This document shows positions 11,290 through 21,686 of a DNA stretch of 39,091 nucleotides, one piece after another; the stretch's first letter is position 1, and each line of letters opens with the position of its first letter. The notes under the pieces were generated by a model. It saw only the letters and a list, made by a program, of their open reading frames with translations, was not told where the DNA came from and did not search any database. Source of the stretch: Cyclobacteriaceae bacterium (GTDB taxonomy: Bacteria > Bacteroidota > Bacteroidia > Cytophagales > Cyclobacteriaceae); NCBI GenBank assembly GCA_027067135.1, contig JAMOMJ010000236.1, positions 1-39,091 of the forward strand, written 5' to 3'. Both the position numbers and the translations under genes were made by a program.

Positions 11290-12738
11290 ATGTCGAAACT
11301 CAAAACAACACTCGCCCTTCTTACCCTTTTATGGGTTGGAAACTTTACCGCCAGTGCCCAAACCGACTCACTTTGGACACTCCAACGATGCATCGATTAT
11401 GCGCTAGAGCATAACCTATCAGTTCAAAATCAACAGTTAAATGTAAGTTTAAACGAAGTAAACCTTCAACAATCTAAGCTAAACTTAGCACCCTCTGTAA
11501 ATGCAAATGGAGGCTATGGATTAAACTGGGGGTTATCTATTAACCCTGTAACAAACATTGCTCAACAACTGCAGCAATCTAACGGTAATGCAAGCCTTAG
11601 TGCAAGTTGGACAATCTTTAGTGGAGGAAGGAATCTGAGAACCATCCGCCAAAACAAAGCACTTTTAGAAAATGGGGAAAATGATTTAGAAAAAACGAAA
11701 AACGATGTGATTCTTTCCTTAATTACGTTTTATACTAATGTTATTTTTAATCAAGAGCTCTTAAATAATGCACAGAAACAATATAATTCTACTAAATCGC
11801 AACTTGATCGCACCCAAAAGCAAGTTGCAGCAGGTTCATTACCAAAATCTGCCGAGTTAGATTTAGTTGCACAATTAGCTAGTAATGAACTAAATGTAAT
11901 TAATGCGGAGAACAACCTTCAGATTTCATTATTGCAATTAAAACAATCAATGCTATTGCCAGGGAGTGCTAACTTAGGGGTTGTTATTCCAGAAATAGAA
12001 TTGGATAGTAGTATGTTGGCAAATATTAATGCCCAGCGCATCTATAAAGAAGCAGAACAAACCATGCCTGAAATTAGAAGTGCAGATGGGCAAGTTGCCG
12101 CTGCCGAAATTGGCATTGATGTGGCCAAAGGTAATTATTACCCTAGTCTGAGATTAAATGCAGGCGTAAGGACAAATTACTCCTCTATTATTGCTGACAG
12201 AGGACGTTTTGAAGGGACTGGTATTTTTACCGATGTACCCATTGGATTTGTTGGAACCTCTAGTGGAGGAACACCTGTAGTTACACCTGTTGAAAATAGA
12301 AACTCATTAGAATATCCCACAGGCCAGCAATTATCTGATAACTTCGGGCAATTTGTGAGCTTAAACTTAACCATTCCAATTTTTAATAATTACCAAGCGA
12401 ATGCCGGAGTACAGCGAGCAAAAATTACTAGAGAACGAGCATTAGTTCAAGCTCAACAAGCAAGGCAAGCACTAAGACAAACCATTGAAACTGCCAGTAA
12501 TGATGCGTTGAGTGCGGCCAAATCGTATGTGAGCTCTTTTAAAAGGGTGGAAGCCCAAGAAGAATCGTTTAGAGCAACTGAACAAAGATTTCAGAATGGG
12601 GCTGCTAATTATACAGAGTATCAAATAGCCGAAAACAACCTGTTTCAATCAAAGTCAGATTTATTAAGAGCTAAGTATAGCTTCATTTTTAGATTAAAAA
12701 TACTTGAATTTTATCAAGGAAAACCAATTGAATTATAA
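11290..12738 (+). CDS. TolC-family outer-membrane efflux protein
   Basis: Signal peptide; 'LQRCIDYALEHNLSVQNQQLNVSLNEVNLQQSKLNLAPSVNANGGYG' and repeated coiled-coil organisation of the OEP family. Confidence 0.92.
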   Translation: MSKLKTTLALLTLLWVGNFTASAQTDSLWTLQRCIDYALEHNLSVQNQQLNVSLNEVNLQQSKLNLAPSVNANGGYGLNWGLSINPVTNIAQQLQQSNGNASLSASWTIFSGGRNLRTIRQNKALLENGENDLEKTKNDVILSLITFYTNVIFNQELLNNAQKQYNSTKSQLDRTQKQVAAGSLPKSAELDLVAQLASNELNVINAENNLQISLLQLKQSMLLPGSANLGVVIPEIELDSSMLANINAQRIYKEAEQTMPEIRSADGQVAAAEIGIDVAKGNYYPSLRLNAGVRTNYSSIIADRGRFEGTGIFTDVPIGFVGTSSGGTPVVTPVENRNSLEYPTGQQLSDNFGQFVSLNLTIPIFNNYQANAGVQRAKITRERALVQAQQARQALRQTIETASNDALSAAKSYVSSFKRVEAQEESFRATEQRFQNGAANYTEYQIAENNLFQSKSDLLRAKYSFIFRLKILEFYQGKPIEL

Positions 12739-12752
12739 CCAATAACCGAATT

Positions 12753-14120
12753 ATGGCTAAGCAGAAGAAGAAATCTAATAAAATAATATATATACTACTT
12801 GGTGTATTGGTTTTATTAATAGTACTCGTAATTATACTCAAAAAATCGAGTAAGAAAGAAATAGAGGTTACGATAAGCACTCCTAAAACACTTACGATTG
12901 TAGAAAAAATAAGTGCTTCGGGTATGGTTCAACCAGTAAACGAAGTAAAACTTAGCCCTGATGTAGCTGGCGAAATTATTGAATTACATGTAGAAGAGAG
13001 TGATTCAGTTACCAAAGATCAACTATTAGTAAAAATCAGACCCGATAATTACATTTCATTTGTTCAAAGGGCTGAAGCCAGCTTAAATCAGCAAAAAGCC
13101 AATTTACTTTCTACCAAGGCAAGCTTGGCAAGAACAGAAGCCACTTTTGAAAGAGCCAAACTTGATTATGAGCGAAATAAAAAACTGTATGAGCAAAATG
13201 TAATTTCTACTTCTGATTGGGAGCTTTCTAAGCAAAATTTTAAAATTGCCCAAAACGATCTCGAATCTGCAAAAGCTTCGGTACAAGCCTCAAAATACGT
13301 GGTTAAAAGTAGTAAAGCTGCTTTGGAAGATGCCCAAGAAAATTTACGTAAAACATCGGTTCTTTCTCCTATTAGTGGTACAGTTTCTAAACTAGATGTT
13401 AAAGAAGGAGAACGTGTTGTGGGTACTTCTCAGTTTGCAGGTACCGAAATGCTTCGTATTGCTGATTTAAACAATATGGAAGTTCGTGTTGATGTAAACG
13501 AGAATGATATTATTAGAATTAGCATTGGCGATACTTCCATTATTGATGTAGATGCTTATACGCACCTAGGCAAAAAGTTTAAAGGGGTTGTTACTCAAAT
13601 AGCCAATACAGCAAAAAGTAAAGCGTCTGCAGATGCTGTTACTGAGTTTGAAGTTAAAATTAAGGTGCTTCCCTCTTCTTATGCTGACCTTCAAGCAGAA
13701 GGGAATAAACATCCTTTTAAACCAGGAATGACAGCGAGCGTTGATATTATTACCAAAACAAAGGCTAATATTAGAACGGTTCCATTGGCCGCTGTAACAG
13801 TTAGAACTGAAAGTGAATTAGAAGATTCGAATTCTGATGACGATGAAGCTAACTCTAATAGAGATAGTAAAAAGAAAGATTCTAAATCAAACGAAGAGGA
13901 GAAAAAGATCGAATTGATTTTTGTAAGCGATAATGGTGTTGCCAAAGTTGTAAAAGTGGAAACAGGAATTAGCGATTATGAAAATATAGAAATCATAAGT
14001 GAATTAAGCGATTCTGCTCAAGTTATTACAGGTCCTTTTATAGCTGTTTCTAAACGACTTAAAGAGGGAGATTTAGTGAAAGAAGATAAAAAAAAGAAGA
14101 GTAAAAAAAGGAAAAAGTAG
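12753..14120 (+). CDS. Periplasmic adaptor (HlyD/MacA-type membrane fusion protein)
   Basis: N-terminal TM; 'ISASGMVQPVNEVKLSPDVAGEIIELHVEESDSVTKDQLLVKI'; coiled-coil; 'VLSPISGTVSKLDVKEGERV'; acidic/basic low-complexity insert near the C-terminus. Confidence 0.9.
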   Translation: MAKQKKKSNKIIYILLGVLVLLIVLVIILKKSSKKEIEVTISTPKTLTIVEKISASGMVQPVNEVKLSPDVAGEIIELHVEESDSVTKDQLLVKIRPDNYISFVQRAEASLNQQKANLLSTKASLARTEATFERAKLDYERNKKLYEQNVISTSDWELSKQNFKIAQNDLESAKASVQASKYVVKSSKAALEDAQENLRKTSVLSPISGTVSKLDVKEGERVVGTSQFAGTEMLRIADLNNMEVRVDVNENDIIRISIGDTSIIDVDAYTHLGKKFKGVVTQIANTAKSKASADAVTEFEVKIKVLPSSYADLQAEGNKHPFKPGMTASVDIITKTKANIRTVPLAAVTVRTESELEDSNSDDDEANSNRDSKKKDSKSNEEEKKIELIFVSDNGVAKVVKVETGISDYENIEIISELSDSAQVITGPFIAVSKRLKEGDLVKEDKKKKSKKRKK

Positions 14121-14832: not shown

Positions 14833-17706
14833 ATGAAATTACTTAACCTCATACTTACAATAATCAGTTTGTTTACACCCTTAATTGTTAATGGGCAAAC
14901 CCGATTGGTTATTGATCCACAGGCTCATAATGGTATTGTAAACGATATGGCTTTTACGAGCGATGGTATGTACCTTATTTCTGTTTCTGATGATAAAACA
15001 ATACGTATTTGGGATGTAAAAAGTGGTGTATTAGATAGAACCATAAGAAGTTTTGCAGGCAAAGGGCCTGAGGGTGCCATATACTCGTTGGCACTTTCTC
15101 CGGATGATAGATACTTAGCAATTGGAGGTTATTTTTCTGAAAATGAGATTCGCATTATTGATCTTGAAAAAGAGTCGAAACTTATTCTTTTAAAAGGGCA
15201 TACTAATGTAGTTACTAGCCTTGAGTTTTCTAAAGACGGATTGCAACTTGCAAGTGCTGATGCCACAGGAAATATTCGTTTATGGGATATTAATTTTTCA
15301 AATGGAGCTTTAATTGGAAACCCGAAAAGTTTATTATCCGGGCATCAAGCCCAAGTGTATGATATTTCGTTTGCCCCAAATGGCAAACAATTGGTTTCAG
15401 CATCTTACGATGGCACCCTTAGACTATGGAATTTAGAAGAGGCAGGCGAGCCAATAATAATGCGGATGCATATAGATAAAGTTCAAGCCTGCGCTTTTTC
15501 ATCTGATGGTAATTGGATAGTTTCCGGAGGAAATAAAGGGAAGGCGATTCTTTGGGATAGCGAAGGTACATTTAGTAAATACCTTGCCTCTATTGATGAG
15601 GCCATAAATGATATAAAAATATTGGGGGATGAAGTAATTGTATCTGGTTCGAAAGGATTTAGATATTCATTAAGTTCAGGAGCATATAAAGGTCAATTAA
15701 TGATGCCGTTTTCTGAAATTTCTGTATCGGCTATTTCTAACACAAAAGTAGCTGCCTTGGCCGGAGGGCCACAAGGTTCTGTTATAATCTATGACCTAGT
15801 TTCTAACGACCCATTAAAGTCTTTTAGAAATAGGTCTCAAAAAATTAAACAAATTGGAATAACTAACGATGCTAGCATCGTATTCAAAACAAAAGGAGCT
15901 ATTTTTTCTACCGGAATAAATTTATCGTCCCTTTCTTTTATTTGGGATACAAGTAAAGCAGGAAATATTGTTGAAGAGCGGCACGAAGAAAACGGGTATA
16001 AACTCCAGGCAGTTGACAAATACACACTAAGTACTGGGTTCAGTGGAAAAATAGAAATGAGCCCAAGACTGGATGGAAGGCTTAGGTCGTTTACTATTAT
16101 AGATGAGAAAGCTATAGCTGTTGGTGGTGATTTTTCTTTAAAACTTTATTCAAGAAATGGGGAATTTAAAACGGAGTTAAAAGGGTTTAATAGTGCCATC
16201 ACATCTATTGTAGCTGGTAGTAATAGAATTGCAGCTTTATGTCAGGATCAAACAATTAGAATTTGGAATGCTTCTACTTATGAACTTCTCGCATCGGTAT
16301 ATTTAGCTCCTAAAAATGATTGGATTTGTTGGACACCTCAAGGGTATTACCAAGCTTCGAGTGGAGGGGAAAAGTATATGGGCTGGCAAGTTGATGAAAA
16401 TCCATCAACCCTATCAAAATTTTATAAGAGCAGTGTTTTTGCTTCAAAATTTCATAACGTTGAAATGGTAAAGGCCACAATTGCGTTAGGTAGTTTTGAT
16501 ACAGCCAAAGAAAAAGTGAAGAATTTGGAACAGTATAATGCTAAGTTAACAGAGCAACAGAATTCTAATTCTCCCAAACTTGCCACAAAAGCAATAGAGG
16601 TTATTCGAGATGCTCCTTCTATAGAATGGATTAACCCTGAACTTCAAAATTCAGAGCAAGGAGAATCTAAGATTACCATTAAGGCCAATATTAAATCAAG
16701 CTCCAAAATTAAAATGGTTAAAATTCTAGTTAATGGGCGGCCATCTTCAAACAGCAGGGGGGTAGTTATTCCAAAATTTGTTGGAGAGTATGATATACAG
16801 GTTGAACAGGAATTGTTTTTATCTAGTGACGTGAATGAGGTCAGAATTTTTGTAGCCAATCAGGAGGCAAAAATGGTATCAGAAAAGAGAGTGATAAACC
16901 TTGTTGGCGTGGAGGCAAGAGGGCAAGGCAGGTCGTTAGAGGTTATCAATTATTCTGATCGACCTGATTTATATGTATTAAGCATTGGAATCTCTGATTA
17001 TGCTAATTCTGATTATGACTTAAACTACGCAGATAATGATGCAAAATCCATATCAGAGGTTTTTGCAGAGTTAGGAACCGAAGTATATAAGGATGTTAAC
17101 TCGACTCAATTACTAAATAGTAAAGCCGATAAATACTCAATTTTAAAGGCTTTTGATAACTTATCCCACCAAGTGCAAGCAAAGGATATGGTTGTTATAT
17201 TTATAGCTTCGCACGGTATTAACGAGGAGGGGGAGTTCTTTATTTTGCCTTACGATGCAGACCTTATTCAGGAGCCGGAAAATGTAGTAAGTTGGAAGGA
17301 TCTAACTCAAACATTAAGTGATTTGCCTGCAAATGTTATTATAATGATTGATGCATGTAGAAGTGGGCAGTTAGGTGTTAATTTAACCCAATATGGAGCT
17401 AATAATACCGAAGCTTTGCGCTTTGCTTCAAGCGATGAAAATGGGTTAGTGCTAATGGCTGCATCTACCGGTAGTGAATCTGCATTGGAAACACCTGCTT
17501 GGGGGCATGGAGCATTTACCTTGGCTATTTTAGAAGGAATTGAGAAAGGAAAAGCGGATATAAAACCCGATGGAACTATTTACTTGAGGGAGTTAGATTT
17601 CTATGTTTCGGAGCGAACTATTGAGCTTACTAATAATGTTCAGCACCCTACAACTCAGAAACCAAGCACAATAAGCAGATTATCAATTATTAATTTAAAT
17701 AAATAA
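14833..17706 (+). CDS. Exported WD40-repeat / caspase (peptidase C14) fusion protein
   Basis: Signal peptide MKLLNLILTIISLFTPLIVNG; WD40 motifs (..DKTIRIWD.., ..GNIRLWD.., ..DGTLRLWN..); caspase p20-like 'LYVLSIGISDYANSDYDLNYADNDAKSISEVF', His in 'VIFIASHG' (codon 794), Cys in 'IMIDACRSG' (codon 842). Confidence 0.93.
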   Translation: MKLLNLILTIISLFTPLIVNGQTRLVIDPQAHNGIVNDMAFTSDGMYLISVSDDKTIRIWDVKSGVLDRTIRSFAGKGPEGAIYSLALSPDDRYLAIGGYFSENEIRIIDLEKESKLILLKGHTNVVTSLEFSKDGLQLASADATGNIRLWDINFSNGALIGNPKSLLSGHQAQVYDISFAPNGKQLVSASYDGTLRLWNLEEAGEPIIMRMHIDKVQACAFSSDGNWIVSGGNKGKAILWDSEGTFSKYLASIDEAINDIKILGDEVIVSGSKGFRYSLSSGAYKGQLMMPFSEISVSAISNTKVAALAGGPQGSVIIYDLVSNDPLKSFRNRSQKIKQIGITNDASIVFKTKGAIFSTGINLSSLSFIWDTSKAGNIVEERHEENGYKLQAVDKYTLSTGFSGKIEMSPRLDGRLRSFTIIDEKAIAVGGDFSLKLYSRNGEFKTELKGFNSAITSIVAGSNRIAALCQDQTIRIWNASTYELLASVYLAPKNDWICWTPQGYYQASSGGEKYMGWQVDENPSTLSKFYKSSVFASKFHNVEMVKATIALGSFDTAKEKVKNLEQYNAKLTEQQNSNSPKLATKAIEVIRDAPSIEWINPELQNSEQGESKITIKANIKSSSKIKMVKILVNGRPSSNSRGVVIPKFVGEYDIQVEQELFLSSDVNEVRIFVANQEAKMVSEKRVINLVGVEARGQGRSLEVINYSDRPDLYVLSIGISDYANSDYDLNYADNDAKSISEVFAELGTEVYKDVNSTQLLNSKADKYSILKAFDNLSHQVQAKDMVVIFIASHGINEEGEFFILPYDADLIQEPENVVSWKDLTQTLSDLPANVIIMIDACRSGQLGVNLTQYGANNTEALRFASSDENGLVLMAASTGSESALETPAWGHGAFTLAILEGIEKGKADIKPDGTIYLRELDFYVSERTIELTNNVQHPTTQKPSTISRLSIINLNK

Positions 17707-17734
17707 TGTACTTTTAAACGTAAACTAATAAATT

Positions 17735-18397
17735 ATGAAACTAATAAAATCGTTAACACTCGCATTCGCAATTGTTTTTGCTTTTAGCACATTAACTGTT
17801 GCCCAGACTAAAGCTGCAAAAAAAGCTGGCAAAAAAGAAATTAAGAAAAAGCCAGTTAAAGAAGCTAAAAAAGAGGCTAAGTCGTTTAAAAAACAAGGGT
17901 ATCATGTTTCTCCAGGAGCTTTACCAATGGGGAAGCAAATTGAAACTGCTTGGATTCGCCAATATGAAACAACTGAAGATGGATACCCTTTATATATTGT
18001 AGCTTCAGGTAATTCAGTTGCAAACACTCAAACAGCTGCTAAGTTGCAAGCAACAGAAGTAGCTAAATTAGAACTTGCAGGATCTATTTCAACTCAAGTG
18101 GCAGCACTTATTGAAACCAGTATTGCTAACCAGCAATTTAATGCCGAGGAGGCCGCTTCGGTAACTAAAACAGTAGCAGCAGCTAAAAACATTATTGCTC
18201 AAGAGTTGGGTAGAACCTTACCCCTATTTGAGATTTACAGAACACTTGATAATAAAAATGTAGAAGTGTTTGTAAGAATGGCCTACAATTCTGAAAAAGC
18301 AATGGCTGTAGCCCAAAAAGCGATATCTAAAAAATTAGAAGAAGAAACAGATATTGCTCACGACAAACTTGAGAAACTAATGAAATGGGATAACTAA
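17735..18397 (+). CDS. LPP20-like exported protein
   Basis: Signal peptide (FAFSTLTVAQ); Lys-rich linker; 'YIVASGNSVANTQTAAKLQATEVAKLELAGSISTQVAALIE' resembles LPP20-type proteins. Confidence 0.6.
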   Translation: MKLIKSLTLAFAIVFAFSTLTVAQTKAAKKAGKKEIKKKPVKEAKKEAKSFKKQGYHVSPGALPMGKQIETAWIRQYETTEDGYPLYIVASGNSVANTQTAAKLQATEVAKLELAGSISTQVAALIETSIANQQFNAEEAASVTKTVAAAKNIIAQELGRTLPLFEIYRTLDNKNVEVFVRMAYNSEKAMAVAQKAISKKLEEETDIAHDKLEKLMKWDN

Positions 18398-18488
18398 AAT
18401 ATATCTGAAAAGATATGTTTTATGCCGAGCTTAGTTTGGCATTTCTTAATACATTAGCCGTAATGGCAATTTTAGAATATTAACTGTG

Positions 18489-18518
18489 AAAGGTTGGTTT
18501 AATTGCGAACCAACCTTT
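18489..18518 (+). terminator. Candidate intrinsic terminator/attenuator between the two LPP20-like genes
   Basis: AAAGGTTGGTT-taattgcg-AACCAACCTTT, perfect 11-bp stem, then CTTTG; overlaps the first codons of the computed ORF starting at 18486. Confidence 0.65.
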
Positions 18519-18533
18519 CTTTGTATTTATGTT

Positions 18534-20324
18534 ATGAGAAAACAACTATTACTAATTGTATTTGTATGTTTTAATATTGGGGCTTGGTCGCAAAAAGATG
18601 CTCCTTTCTGGCTCGATCCTTACCAAAGAGAATCGAAATACCCGGCAGACCAATATTTGGTGGGTCTTAGTTCTGAGTTAGTGGGCAAAAAGCAAAGTCT
18701 GTCAAATATCTATAAACAGCTAAATCAAACTTCTCGTAATCAAATTATTGAGTCGGTTCATGTAAATGTGAAATCGGAAACCGTAATGAATATTTCTATT
18801 GTAAATACGGAATCTACACAGTTATTGGATCAAAATTCTGTTTCTATTTCTAAAGCTGAGTTGGTAGGGCTCAAATTTGAAAATTATTATTATAAAAAGA
18901 AGAAAACGGCATTTTCGTTTTCGTATGTTAAAATTCAAGACATTATTGAGTTTAACCTTGATATAATAAAAGTAAATACAGCAGCCATTGAAAAAAATGT
19001 AGGTATAGCAAATACTAGCATAGCAAATGGTAATAAGGAAAAAGCCATTGATTTATTATTCGAAAGTCAGGTGAAACTGAAAGAGATAAACAAGGCTGCG
19101 GTAATGTTAATGGCATTAGACCAAGACGATCAACTTGACTTTAATAAAATTGGGCAAATGAAATTAGACATAGCCCAAGGTACGGATGACTTTTTTAATA
19201 AAGGAACACTAAATGTGCAGGAGTTGGCTTCGTTTTATGCCTATGGCTTGCAACTTCAATTAGGCGATGCTGGTATTACGGTTTGCAAAGGAAAAGTTGG
19301 TTTTGAAACATCTGGTAAAGAAAGCAAGTTTTCTGCTGAGTTTACTAATCGTATATTAAATAAGCTAAGTGATTTAGAACTTGTTAAAATAGGAGAGTCC
19401 GGCTATGACTTTACTTTCTCAGGCAGTTTTAATCGTTCAAATGATAACATTGTGTTAGTTTCCAACTTTGTGGATTCAAACGGAAAGGTAAGAGCTACTG
19501 TTAATAATAAGTTTCCATATAACTCTGTTCAGTTTGGAGAACTTACTTTTTTACCTAAAAATTTTCAATACATAAATCACTTGTCCGAAATAAAACTAAT
19601 TCCTGAACAAGAAGCCTATACTATTAAAAAAGTGGAGCTATTTAAAAATCCTATTAAGTTGGCATTACAATTAGAGGGAAACCCATTAATTGATATACCG
19701 GTTCATTTTAAAATACTTCGTAATGATGAGATAGAATATGAAACAAGTATTATTTCAAACAAAAACGGTATAGCTGAATTAGTAATAAATACAGATCAAA
19801 TTAAGCGCAGCGGAGAGCTACTTTTGCATGCTAATGTAGATGTAGCTGATTTGTTAGGTGTGGAAGATAATACTGATTTTATTCGTAAAACATTGAAAGA
19901 GCATCCTTTGCAAGCCAAACAGTTAAAAGTAAAAGTGCTTGCACCTACAGTTTATGTTAGTTCTAAAGAATATGGACTAGGGAAACCTCTTGGTATTACT
20001 ATTCTTGCACCTTCGTTAAAAAATGCACTTATTGAGCTTGATTATAAATTTGTGGAAGAGGCTGAAGGTGCTGATTATTTTATTACGATAGAAGCTGCTA
20101 CAAGAAGTGGGCAAGGTAAACAAGGAGGCATATATTTTTCGTACTTAGATGCCACAGTATCCATGGTTCGAACAGATACTGGTAAAGAAATTTATAAAAG
20201 CTCACTTTCAAGTGTAAAAGGGAGCGGAGCCAATTTTGAGTTAGCAAGTGCTAAAGCATACGAAAAAGCTAAAAAAACAATTGGTAATGATATTTCCTAT
20301 GAGTTAGAATTTAACCAAAAGTAG
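18534..20324 (+). CDS. LPP20-like exported protein (start revised from 18486 to 18534)
   Basis: Signal peptide MRKQLLLIVFVCFNIGAWSQ begins at 18534; mature N-terminus 'DAPFWLDPYQRESKYPADQYLVGLSSE' matches the LPP20-type 'P.W......YP...Y..G' pattern. Confidence 0.7.
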   Translation: MRKQLLLIVFVCFNIGAWSQKDAPFWLDPYQRESKYPADQYLVGLSSELVGKKQSLSNIYKQLNQTSRNQIIESVHVNVKSETVMNISIVNTESTQLLDQNSVSISKAELVGLKFENYYYKKKKTAFSFSYVKIQDIIEFNLDIIKVNTAAIEKNVGIANTSIANGNKEKAIDLLFESQVKLKEINKAAVMLMALDQDDQLDFNKIGQMKLDIAQGTDDFFNKGTLNVQELASFYAYGLQLQLGDAGITVCKGKVGFETSGKESKFSAEFTNRILNKLSDLELVKIGESGYDFTFSGSFNRSNDNIVLVSNFVDSNGKVRATVNNKFPYNSVQFGELTFLPKNFQYINHLSEIKLIPEQEAYTIKKVELFKNPIKLALQLEGNPLIDIPVHFKILRNDEIEYETSIISNKNGIAELVINTDQIKRSGELLLHANVDVADLLGVEDNTDFIRKTLKEHPLQAKQLKVKVLAPTVYVSSKEYGLGKPLGITILAPSLKNALIELDYKFVEEAEGADYFITIEAATRSGQGKQGGIYFSYLDATVSMVRTDTGKEIYKSSLSSVKGSGANFELASAKAYEKAKKTIGNDISYELEFNQK

Positions 20325-20327
20325 GAA

Positions 20328-21686
20328 CTATTTTCCTACTTTAATCGCAAACCCTAAAAGCTCATTATATACTTGGTTCGCTGCTTTACTGCTCGAAACA
20401 TTTATCATTCGGTCGTAGCTTGGGTAGTCTGGCTCTCTCTTTTTCATAAGTGTAGGAATGGCTCTTTTATCTCCTGTATAGCTGCCTATCCACCTTTTAC
20501 GCCAATCATCCGTGCCAGTACCTGTTCCTGAATAGAGCACTGTACCTGTTTTAACATCTATTACTTTGTAGGAGCAGCTTACAACGGCATTAGCTTTTTT
20601 CTCATACACCTTAGCTTGAGCATATACGGTACCTTTAATCTTACGAGTCTTTTCTTTACCATTGTCATCAATGTATTTCTCGGTACGAATTGTTACTTCT
20701 TTTGAATAAGACCTGTCTTCAGGGCCTGTTTTTTGCCTATCGATAAAGCTTTTTGGTACACTCCCAACTAATAGTACGTCAACTCCTTTTAGTTCTCCAA
20801 TTTCAGCAGTTGTACTCTCGTCCATAAGCCCTGAAACTGCCAATTCCTGCTCTTTAATTACATTATCAAGTTGGTTTCTGTCAACAACTTCAAAAAACTC
20901 AAGTTCCGATGCCTTTGAGGTTAAATATTCGAGCAGCTTATCGCTCACTATGGCACCCAAATCTCCATATTGACTATTGCCAGACTCAAATTTCATTAAT
21001 CCCATTCGAGTGGTGCCTAGCTTTCGTACTTCCTCATACCTTTCATTCGCATCGCGATAGTCAGGCACATATTCATTTGCCCATCTATACCTTTTGGCAG
21101 CCATTCTCGCATTTAATTTACTCCCTTGGCTTTCTAATTTTCTACCTTCGGCATAGTGCATTTTAGCTGCTTCTTCTTTAGCCTTTTCTAAATTTTCTTT
21201 AGCCTTAGCTAATTTGCCTTTATAGTCTCCAAACGTAGGATGAAATCCCGGGTCTTTCTTTTTGGCTCCTTTAAGCGACTTAGCTGGAACTTCTTTCAGA
21301 ATGTTATCAGTCGCTTTCATAACTTTATATAGCCTGATAATTTCAGCAATGTCAGTTACCGTTTGGTCACCTTCAAACGATTCTGTATTTTCTTCTAAAA
21401 TCTCTATTCGGTTTAGGTTTGCCTGCACCGATCTATTATAGCTGGCATGCAAATGTTGTTGAGCAGTAGATATTTGCCCTTTTTTTATAGCTATTCTTAA
21501 TGCTGCAGCAGCATTCATCGCTGCTTCCGTATAATTCCCGCTTTTTATTAACCTCTTAGCTTCTTTATTATATTGATTAATTTTTTGCCCCTCACGAACA
21601 CGATAAGGTTTTGTAGAATAGTTGGGTTGGGCAAATGCCGTTAAACCCATACATAAAACAAGCAGGAGAATAGAAATATTTTTCAT
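20328..21686 (-). CDS. Exported CsgG-domain protein with N-terminal helical/TPR-like region
   Basis: Signal peptide (..CMGLTAFAQ); 'MGLMKFESGNSQYGDLGAIVSDKLLEYLTSKASELEFFEVVDRNQLDNVIKEQELAVSGLMDESTTAEIGELKGVDVLLVGSV' is CsgG/HfaB-like. Confidence 0.85.
   Translation of the reverse strand: MKNISILLLVLCMGLTAFAQPNYSTKPYRVREGQKINQYNKEAKRLIKSGNYTEAAMNAAAALRIAIKKGQISTAQQHLHASYNRSVQANLNRIEILEENTESFEGDQTVTDIAEIIRLYKVMKATDNILKEVPAKSLKGAKKKDPGFHPTFGDYKGKLAKAKENLEKAKEEAAKMHYAEGRKLESQGSKLNARMAAKRYRWANEYVPDYRDANERYEEVRKLGTTRMGLMKFESGNSQYGDLGAIVSDKLLEYLTSKASELEFFEVVDRNQLDNVIKEQELAVSGLMDESTTAEIGELKGVDVLLVGSVPKSFIDRQKTGPEDRSYSKEVTIRTEKYIDDNGKEKTRKIKGTVYAQAKVYEKKANAVVSCSYKVIDVKTGTVLYSGTGTGTDDWRKRWIGSYTGDKRAIPTLMKKREPDYPSYDRMINVSSSKAANQVYNELLGFAIKVGK

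Follow-up and report, generated by a model that had tools for sequence, protein, structure and literature searches.

Same-strand linkage of an exported caspase gene to an SHS2/LPP20-like gene in Cytophagales and Bacteroidales

The DNA considered here, called the window, is a stretch of 39,091 nucleotides (contig JAMOMJ010000236.1, assembly GCA_027067135.1) from a Cyclobacteriaceae bacterium, and the subject is a cluster of four neighbouring genes within it, P1 to P4, in which a caspase-like protease with an export-type N-terminus is encoded beside proteins with LPP20-like and CsgG-like domains. The four open reading frames (ORFs) are as follows.

14833..17706, plus strand: P1, exported WD40 and Peptidase_C14 (caspase) protein, 957 residues
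17735..18397, plus strand: P2, exported and LPP20-like, with an SHS2 fold and an N-terminal helix rich in Lys and Arg, 220 residues; hub of the conserved cluster
18534..20324, plus strand: P3, exported, 596 residues, with LPP20-like, CsgG/FlgO-like, Ig-like and C-terminal lipoprotein-like domains
20328..21686, minus strand: P4, exported, 452 residues, with a C-terminal CsgG domain; convergent to P3

These ORFs and the gaps that the initial annotation had given between them, 28, 136 (from the ATG at 18534) and 3 bp, were confirmed. A GTG at 18486 was rejected as the start of P3, being beside a terminator-like hairpin, and the signal peptide begins at the ATG at 18534. The export-type N-termini attributed to all four products are also present, with a basic start, a hydrophobic stretch and a small residue followed by Q (assessed by eye and with a simple pattern); by eye they resemble Sec signal peptides, and none of the four has a lipobox. 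For P1 the relevant features are these.

14833..14895, plus strand: predicted Sec signal peptide of P1, MKLLNLILTIISLFTPLIVNG/QT, by eye
16978..17655, plus strand: caspase domain of P1, residues 716-941 (PF00656, 8e-20)
17212..17214, plus strand: codon of H794, catalytic His of the dyad, from the orthologue alignment and dyad pattern
17356..17358, plus strand: codon of C842, catalytic Cys of the dyad, from the orthologue alignment and dyad pattern

The reading of P1 as a WD40 protein joined to a caspase holds (Pfam PF00400 at 3.7e-46 and PF00656 at 8e-20), the PF00656 score of 71.9 bits against a cut-off of 21.4 placing it in peptidase family C14. The dyad, with H794 in an SHG motif and C842 in a DAC motif, is intact and invariant in 5 P1 orthologues. 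Similarity in the caspase domain to NCBIfam NF047832, the EACC1-associated caspase, is detectable, but at 61.5 bits P1 is below the curated cut-off of 140 and no EACC1 partner was seen.

It is with P2 as the anchor that conservation of the neighbourhood becomes apparent. A P2-only search of named genomes, made with a four-sequence P2 alignment, gave 126 loci, the best 80 of which, together with the window, constitute a set of 81 chosen on P2 conservation alone with the neighbours ignored. The loci are partly non-independent, as 75 of 95 P2 sequences were left after near-duplicates and sequences of odd length had been dropped. They derive from Cyclobacteriaceae and relatives, Bacteroidales metagenome-assembled genomes, Phocaeicola plebeius DSM 17135 and Bacteroides mediterraneensis, and both Cytophagales and Bacteroidales are represented, with relatives of gut Bacteroides, Prevotella and Phocaeicola among the carriers of the cluster. 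A caspase gene is within 6 kb of P2 in 63 of the 81 loci, and in 63 of 63 it is on P2's strand. Where there is at least 5 kb on each side, a caspase is near P2 in 34 of 37 loci. Caspases make up 70 of 576 ORFs within 5 kb of P2 versus 1 of 250 beyond 6.5 kb; by way of background, any C14 match at all is present in 119 of 346 genomes of the phylum, usually with 1-3 per genome. The N-termini of the neighbouring caspases at related loci are of the same kind as that of P1. Across the two orders gene order and partners have been rearranged, yet the co-orientation of caspase and P2 is retained.

The proposal that an extracytoplasmic caspase is tied to LPP20/CsgG-type proteins is strongly supported by a neighbourhood that is conserved well beyond the window genome, and the link, which the initial annotation had drawn from proximity only, is now much firmer. 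As to whether the four genes co-occur only rarely in related genomes, the pairing of caspase and P2 is common, while the exact four-gene set is present only in the window's clade.

The fold of P2 and its kinship merit closer description.

17993..18388, plus strand: SHS2/LPP20-like fold of P2, residues 87-218 (AlphaFold2 predicted local distance difference test score, pLDDT, 92.9; Foldseek match to 5ok8, probability 1.00)
18654..18932, plus strand: LPP20-like domain of P3, residues 41-133, from LPP20 matches in family members and the structure model

In PDB sequence searches with P2, P3 and P4 profiles no clear relative emerged, and for this reason kinship was approached by comparison of folds. 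Top PDB matches for the P2 model in Foldseek are Helicobacter pylori Tip-alpha and Lpp20, the latter (5ok8) with a probability of 1.00, a template modelling (TM) score of 0.62 by target and an E-value of 0.016; with E-values of about 0.01-0.02, the likeness of P2 to Tip-alpha and Lpp20 is one of fold and not of sequence. The P3 model (mean pLDDT 86.9) has an LPP20-like domain together with CsgG-like and Ig-like domains, and its fold matches are to HpaA, CsgG, the flagellar LPHT ring, HP1454 and Tip-alpha, each over partial length and with a low TM-score. In the Pfam search neither P2 nor the window's P3 has a direct match to LPP20 (PF02169), for which there is no match anywhere in the window genome, and NCBIfam was equally uninformative on both. 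However, LPP20 is matched by 4 of 52 P2-family members (best 1.8e-5) and by 13 of 28 P3-family members (best 4.3e-15), so that the earlier LPP20 call for P2 and P3 survives by way of relatives and the P2 fold but not by direct Pfam match. A simple pattern finds a lipobox in 7 of 95 P2 relatives and 7 of 33 P3 relatives, the window's P2 and P3 being without one.

Another property of the P2 family is a basic segment (window 17735-17930), with 37% Lys/Arg over the 35 residues that precede a PG[A/S]LP-type motif, a figure taken over the 83 of 95 members in which the motif was located. It is a possible cleavage or binding site.

Partners of P2 other than the caspase are diverse. One of them, the LPP20-like/DUF4384 protein c9, adjoins P2 in 64 of 79 loci, on the same strand in all. 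DUF4384 is matched in 16 of 32 c9 members and is preceded by a region whose profile modestly resembles those of P2 and of the LPP20 part of P3; a homologue of c9 was not detected in the window genome. Other partners include P3, two CsgG architectures, TPR or WD40 proteins and, in one locus, CHAT. WD40 forms part of the caspase itself in the window's clade and at locus L169 (loci and families are given by their labels, L and f), but P. plebeius and B. mediterraneensis encode it in an exported gene of its own, next to that of a TPR-caspase. At L110 (64-2973) TPR-CHAT is encoded next to P2, in the position taken by a caspase at other loci. CHAT proteases and caspases belong to the same protease clan, and the L110 arrangement suggests exchange between the two families. 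The pattern used for the His/Cys dyad fitted 65 of 76 caspase hits, and several of the 11 that it missed hold an intact His-Cys pair (e.g. L153 and L162).

A survey of 118 genomes of the window's order adds to this. Relatives of P3 occur with those of P4 in families f22 and f17 and with those of P2 in f1 and f10, and L110 has relatives of P2, P3 and P4 together; operons of the type P4-P3(-P2) occur in other families, once with TPR-CHAT next to P2. In four f19 genomes (L100, L102, L103 and L106) P3 heads a run made up of an OmpA/PD40 protein, a protein of no assigned kind and a TPR-caspase; in L106 there is also an orthologue of P1, together with a divergent P2. L126 has a CsgG-like protein, a DUF6175-caspase, P2 and c9 side by side, and at L128 a caspase precedes P2.

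P4 is the sole CsgG-family match in the window genome.

20505..20948, minus strand: CsgG domain of P4, residues 247-394 (PF03783, 3.2e-14)

The domain is as originally called (53.2 bits against a cut-off of 20.8). Within the window's clade the slot after P3 is filled by a convergent CsgG protein in the window, L137, L138 and L140, and by a co-directional one with, by eye, a TPR-like region and an SH3-like tail in L136, L141 and L144. Replacement proteins of this latter kind are encoded, for example, at L136:11427-12941 and L144:12528-14051.

Two predicted structures lie between P2 and P3.

18422..18442, plus strand: hairpin 1, terminator-like, in the P2-P3 gap (predicted)
18488..18519, plus strand: hairpin 2, terminator-like, in the P2-P3 gap, with a 13-bp stem and a T-rich tail

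A hairpin is likewise predicted in the corresponding gap in 8 relatives, and in most of these there are strong hairpins followed by T-rich tracts. Because terminator-like hairpins divide P2 from P3, P1-P2 is the likely transcript, with P3 expressed separately or by read-through; P1-P2 alone probably form the transcriptional unit, and the idea of P1-P2-P3 as one unit is weakened. The gap hairpins recur in relatives despite differing sequences. Rfam and tRNA scans of the window gave no matches, and promoter-like matches were no more frequent than in shuffled sequence.

The component families are known, but no published description of their combination was found. H. pylori Lpp20, Campylobacter FlgP and Vibrio FlgT are comparable in the P2 fold and in the LPP20 matches of the P2 and P3 families, and an envelope location would be expected from the likeness; the window's P2 and P3 differ from them in the absence of a lipobox and in being linked to a caspase and apparently not to flagellar genes. 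Among the families that recur as P2 neighbours there is no obvious flagellar partner, though flagellar hidden Markov models were not run. Curli CsgG and CsgG-fold lipoproteins of the LpoB type parallel the P4 domain, and CsgG is among the P3 fold matches, but P4 has an N-terminal extension of some 240 residues. With the prokaryotic metacaspases and orthocaspases P1 shares a C14 domain with a His/Cys dyad. The available part of a 2012 survey of these proteins (PMC3501461) gives WD40 and TPR as the commonest partner domains of prokaryotic caspase homologues, OmpA in 14 metacaspase operons, and 16 caspase-homologue operons with cell-surface functions, flagellar proteins included; that part makes no mention of associations with LPP20, CsgG or DUF4384. 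Fusion of DUF4384 to orthocaspases has been noted in cyanobacteria. Among open-licence literature no paper joining LPP20, CsgG and caspase was found, which is weak evidence of absence, nor was one found on an orthocaspase in Bacteroides.

Somewhat over the balance of probability, the cluster is to be understood as a Bacteroidota envelope module in which an exported caspase is paired with P2 and with a scaffold or sensor drawn from SHS2, CsgG and DUF4384 proteins. P1 would be exported by Sec and work within the periplasm or on the inner face of the outer membrane, and P2, as an SHS2 protein of the Lpp20/FlgP kind, would with further SHS2, CsgG or DUF4384 proteins form an oligomeric scaffold or sensor. 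FlgP and FlgT, themselves SHS2 proteins, form outer-membrane-associated rings (PMC12222027). The caspase would probably be docked on the scaffold by its interaction part, which is WD40 in the window's clade and TPR or other domains elsewhere; the variation of this part among lineages is consistent with such a role, being expected of a docking domain. The scaffold may hold the caspase inactive or may activate it upon an envelope cue; cleavage would be after Arg or Lys, as in characterised orthocaspases. As a guess, the Lys/Arg-rich N-terminal segment of P2 might be cut by the protease or bind an acidic surface. More tentatively, and with the chances rather against it, this may be an undescribed class of envelope protease machine, an exported caspase gated by an SHS2/CsgG ring or scaffold, with WD40, TPR, OmpA and CHAT exchanged between lineages.

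Several observations weigh against the envelope module. Ring formation by FlgP needs a specific insert (PMC12222027). P2 is patchy in distribution, being present in 16 of 346 genomes of the phylum, some with weak scores. P1 orthologues elsewhere in the order are mostly away from P2, P3 and P4, which makes P1 alone a poor anchor and P2 the informative one. Some neighbouring caspases have apparently lost one or both dyad residues, namely a 504-residue copy at L192 (11708-13222), L182:2708-4423 and L158:5740-7581.

A different use of the same components would be a curli-like outer-membrane pore, formed by the CsgG/LPP20 proteins, that secretes the caspase to the surface. The CsgG domain of P4 and the retention of a CsgG-type neighbour in the window's clade fit with this, but CsgG adjoins P2 in a minority of loci (8 in neighbour clusters plus a few weaker matches) and the caspase does so in most. 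Given that most loci have no CsgG gene nearby, passage of the caspase through CsgG is unlikely. Moreover P4, unlike the curli CsgG lipoprotein, is without a lipobox, CsgF (PF10614) gave no match in the 81%-complete draft genome while an E. coli positive control was detected, and P1 far exceeds a curli subunit in size. The earlier suggestion of export through a CsgG assembly is therefore unsupported, and a secretory pore of this type has perhaps a slim chance of being correct. An accessory role in gliding or type IX secretion, akin to that of H-ring proteins in flagella, is no easier to credit: the f19 P3 operon does include an OmpA/PD40 protein and a TPR-caspase, and the flagellar LPHT ring is listed in the P3 fold search at E 1.5e-4, with a low TM-score, yet the cluster is present in relatives of gut Bacteroides, Prevotella and Phocaeicola, which as a rule are non-gliding.

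Bacterial conflict systems employ caspase-like proteases, and the idea that the exported caspase is the lethal effector of a self-killing or anti-phage device has to be considered, particularly as P1 gives weak single matches to PADLOC caspase models. However, PADLOC reports no complete defence system and no match to P2-P4, the products have export-type N-termini, and the cluster's composition is stable over two orders and apparently not island-like; the device is an unlikely explanation. That the caspase-P2 linkage is functionless, a matter of chance or shared ancestry, would accord with inheritance of the whole block, flanks included, within the window's clade, but is very hard to reconcile with partners rearranged across two orders while co-orientation is complete, or with the near/far difference in caspase frequency, and is accordingly the least credible.

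Little is known of what bacterial caspase homologues do, and discussion has mostly been of cytoplasmic cell-death roles. An envelope module of the type favoured here would give the exported members a likely workplace and named partners of outer-membrane scaffold type. Since P. plebeius DSM 17135 and other gut Bacteroidales carry versions of the cluster, gene removal in cultured gut bacteria offers a direct test.

Some further features of the loci may be recorded. At L192 and L182 a second caspase gene is beside the copy that apparently lacks the dyad. An exported protein of about 488 residues with weak transglutaminase-like similarity (e.g. L177:11598-13073) recurs in 27 loci, always on P2's strand. 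Upstream of P1, at 11290-14120, are OEP and HlyD-type efflux genes, and genes of a size similar to this pair are at the same cluster-adjacent position in L135-L137.

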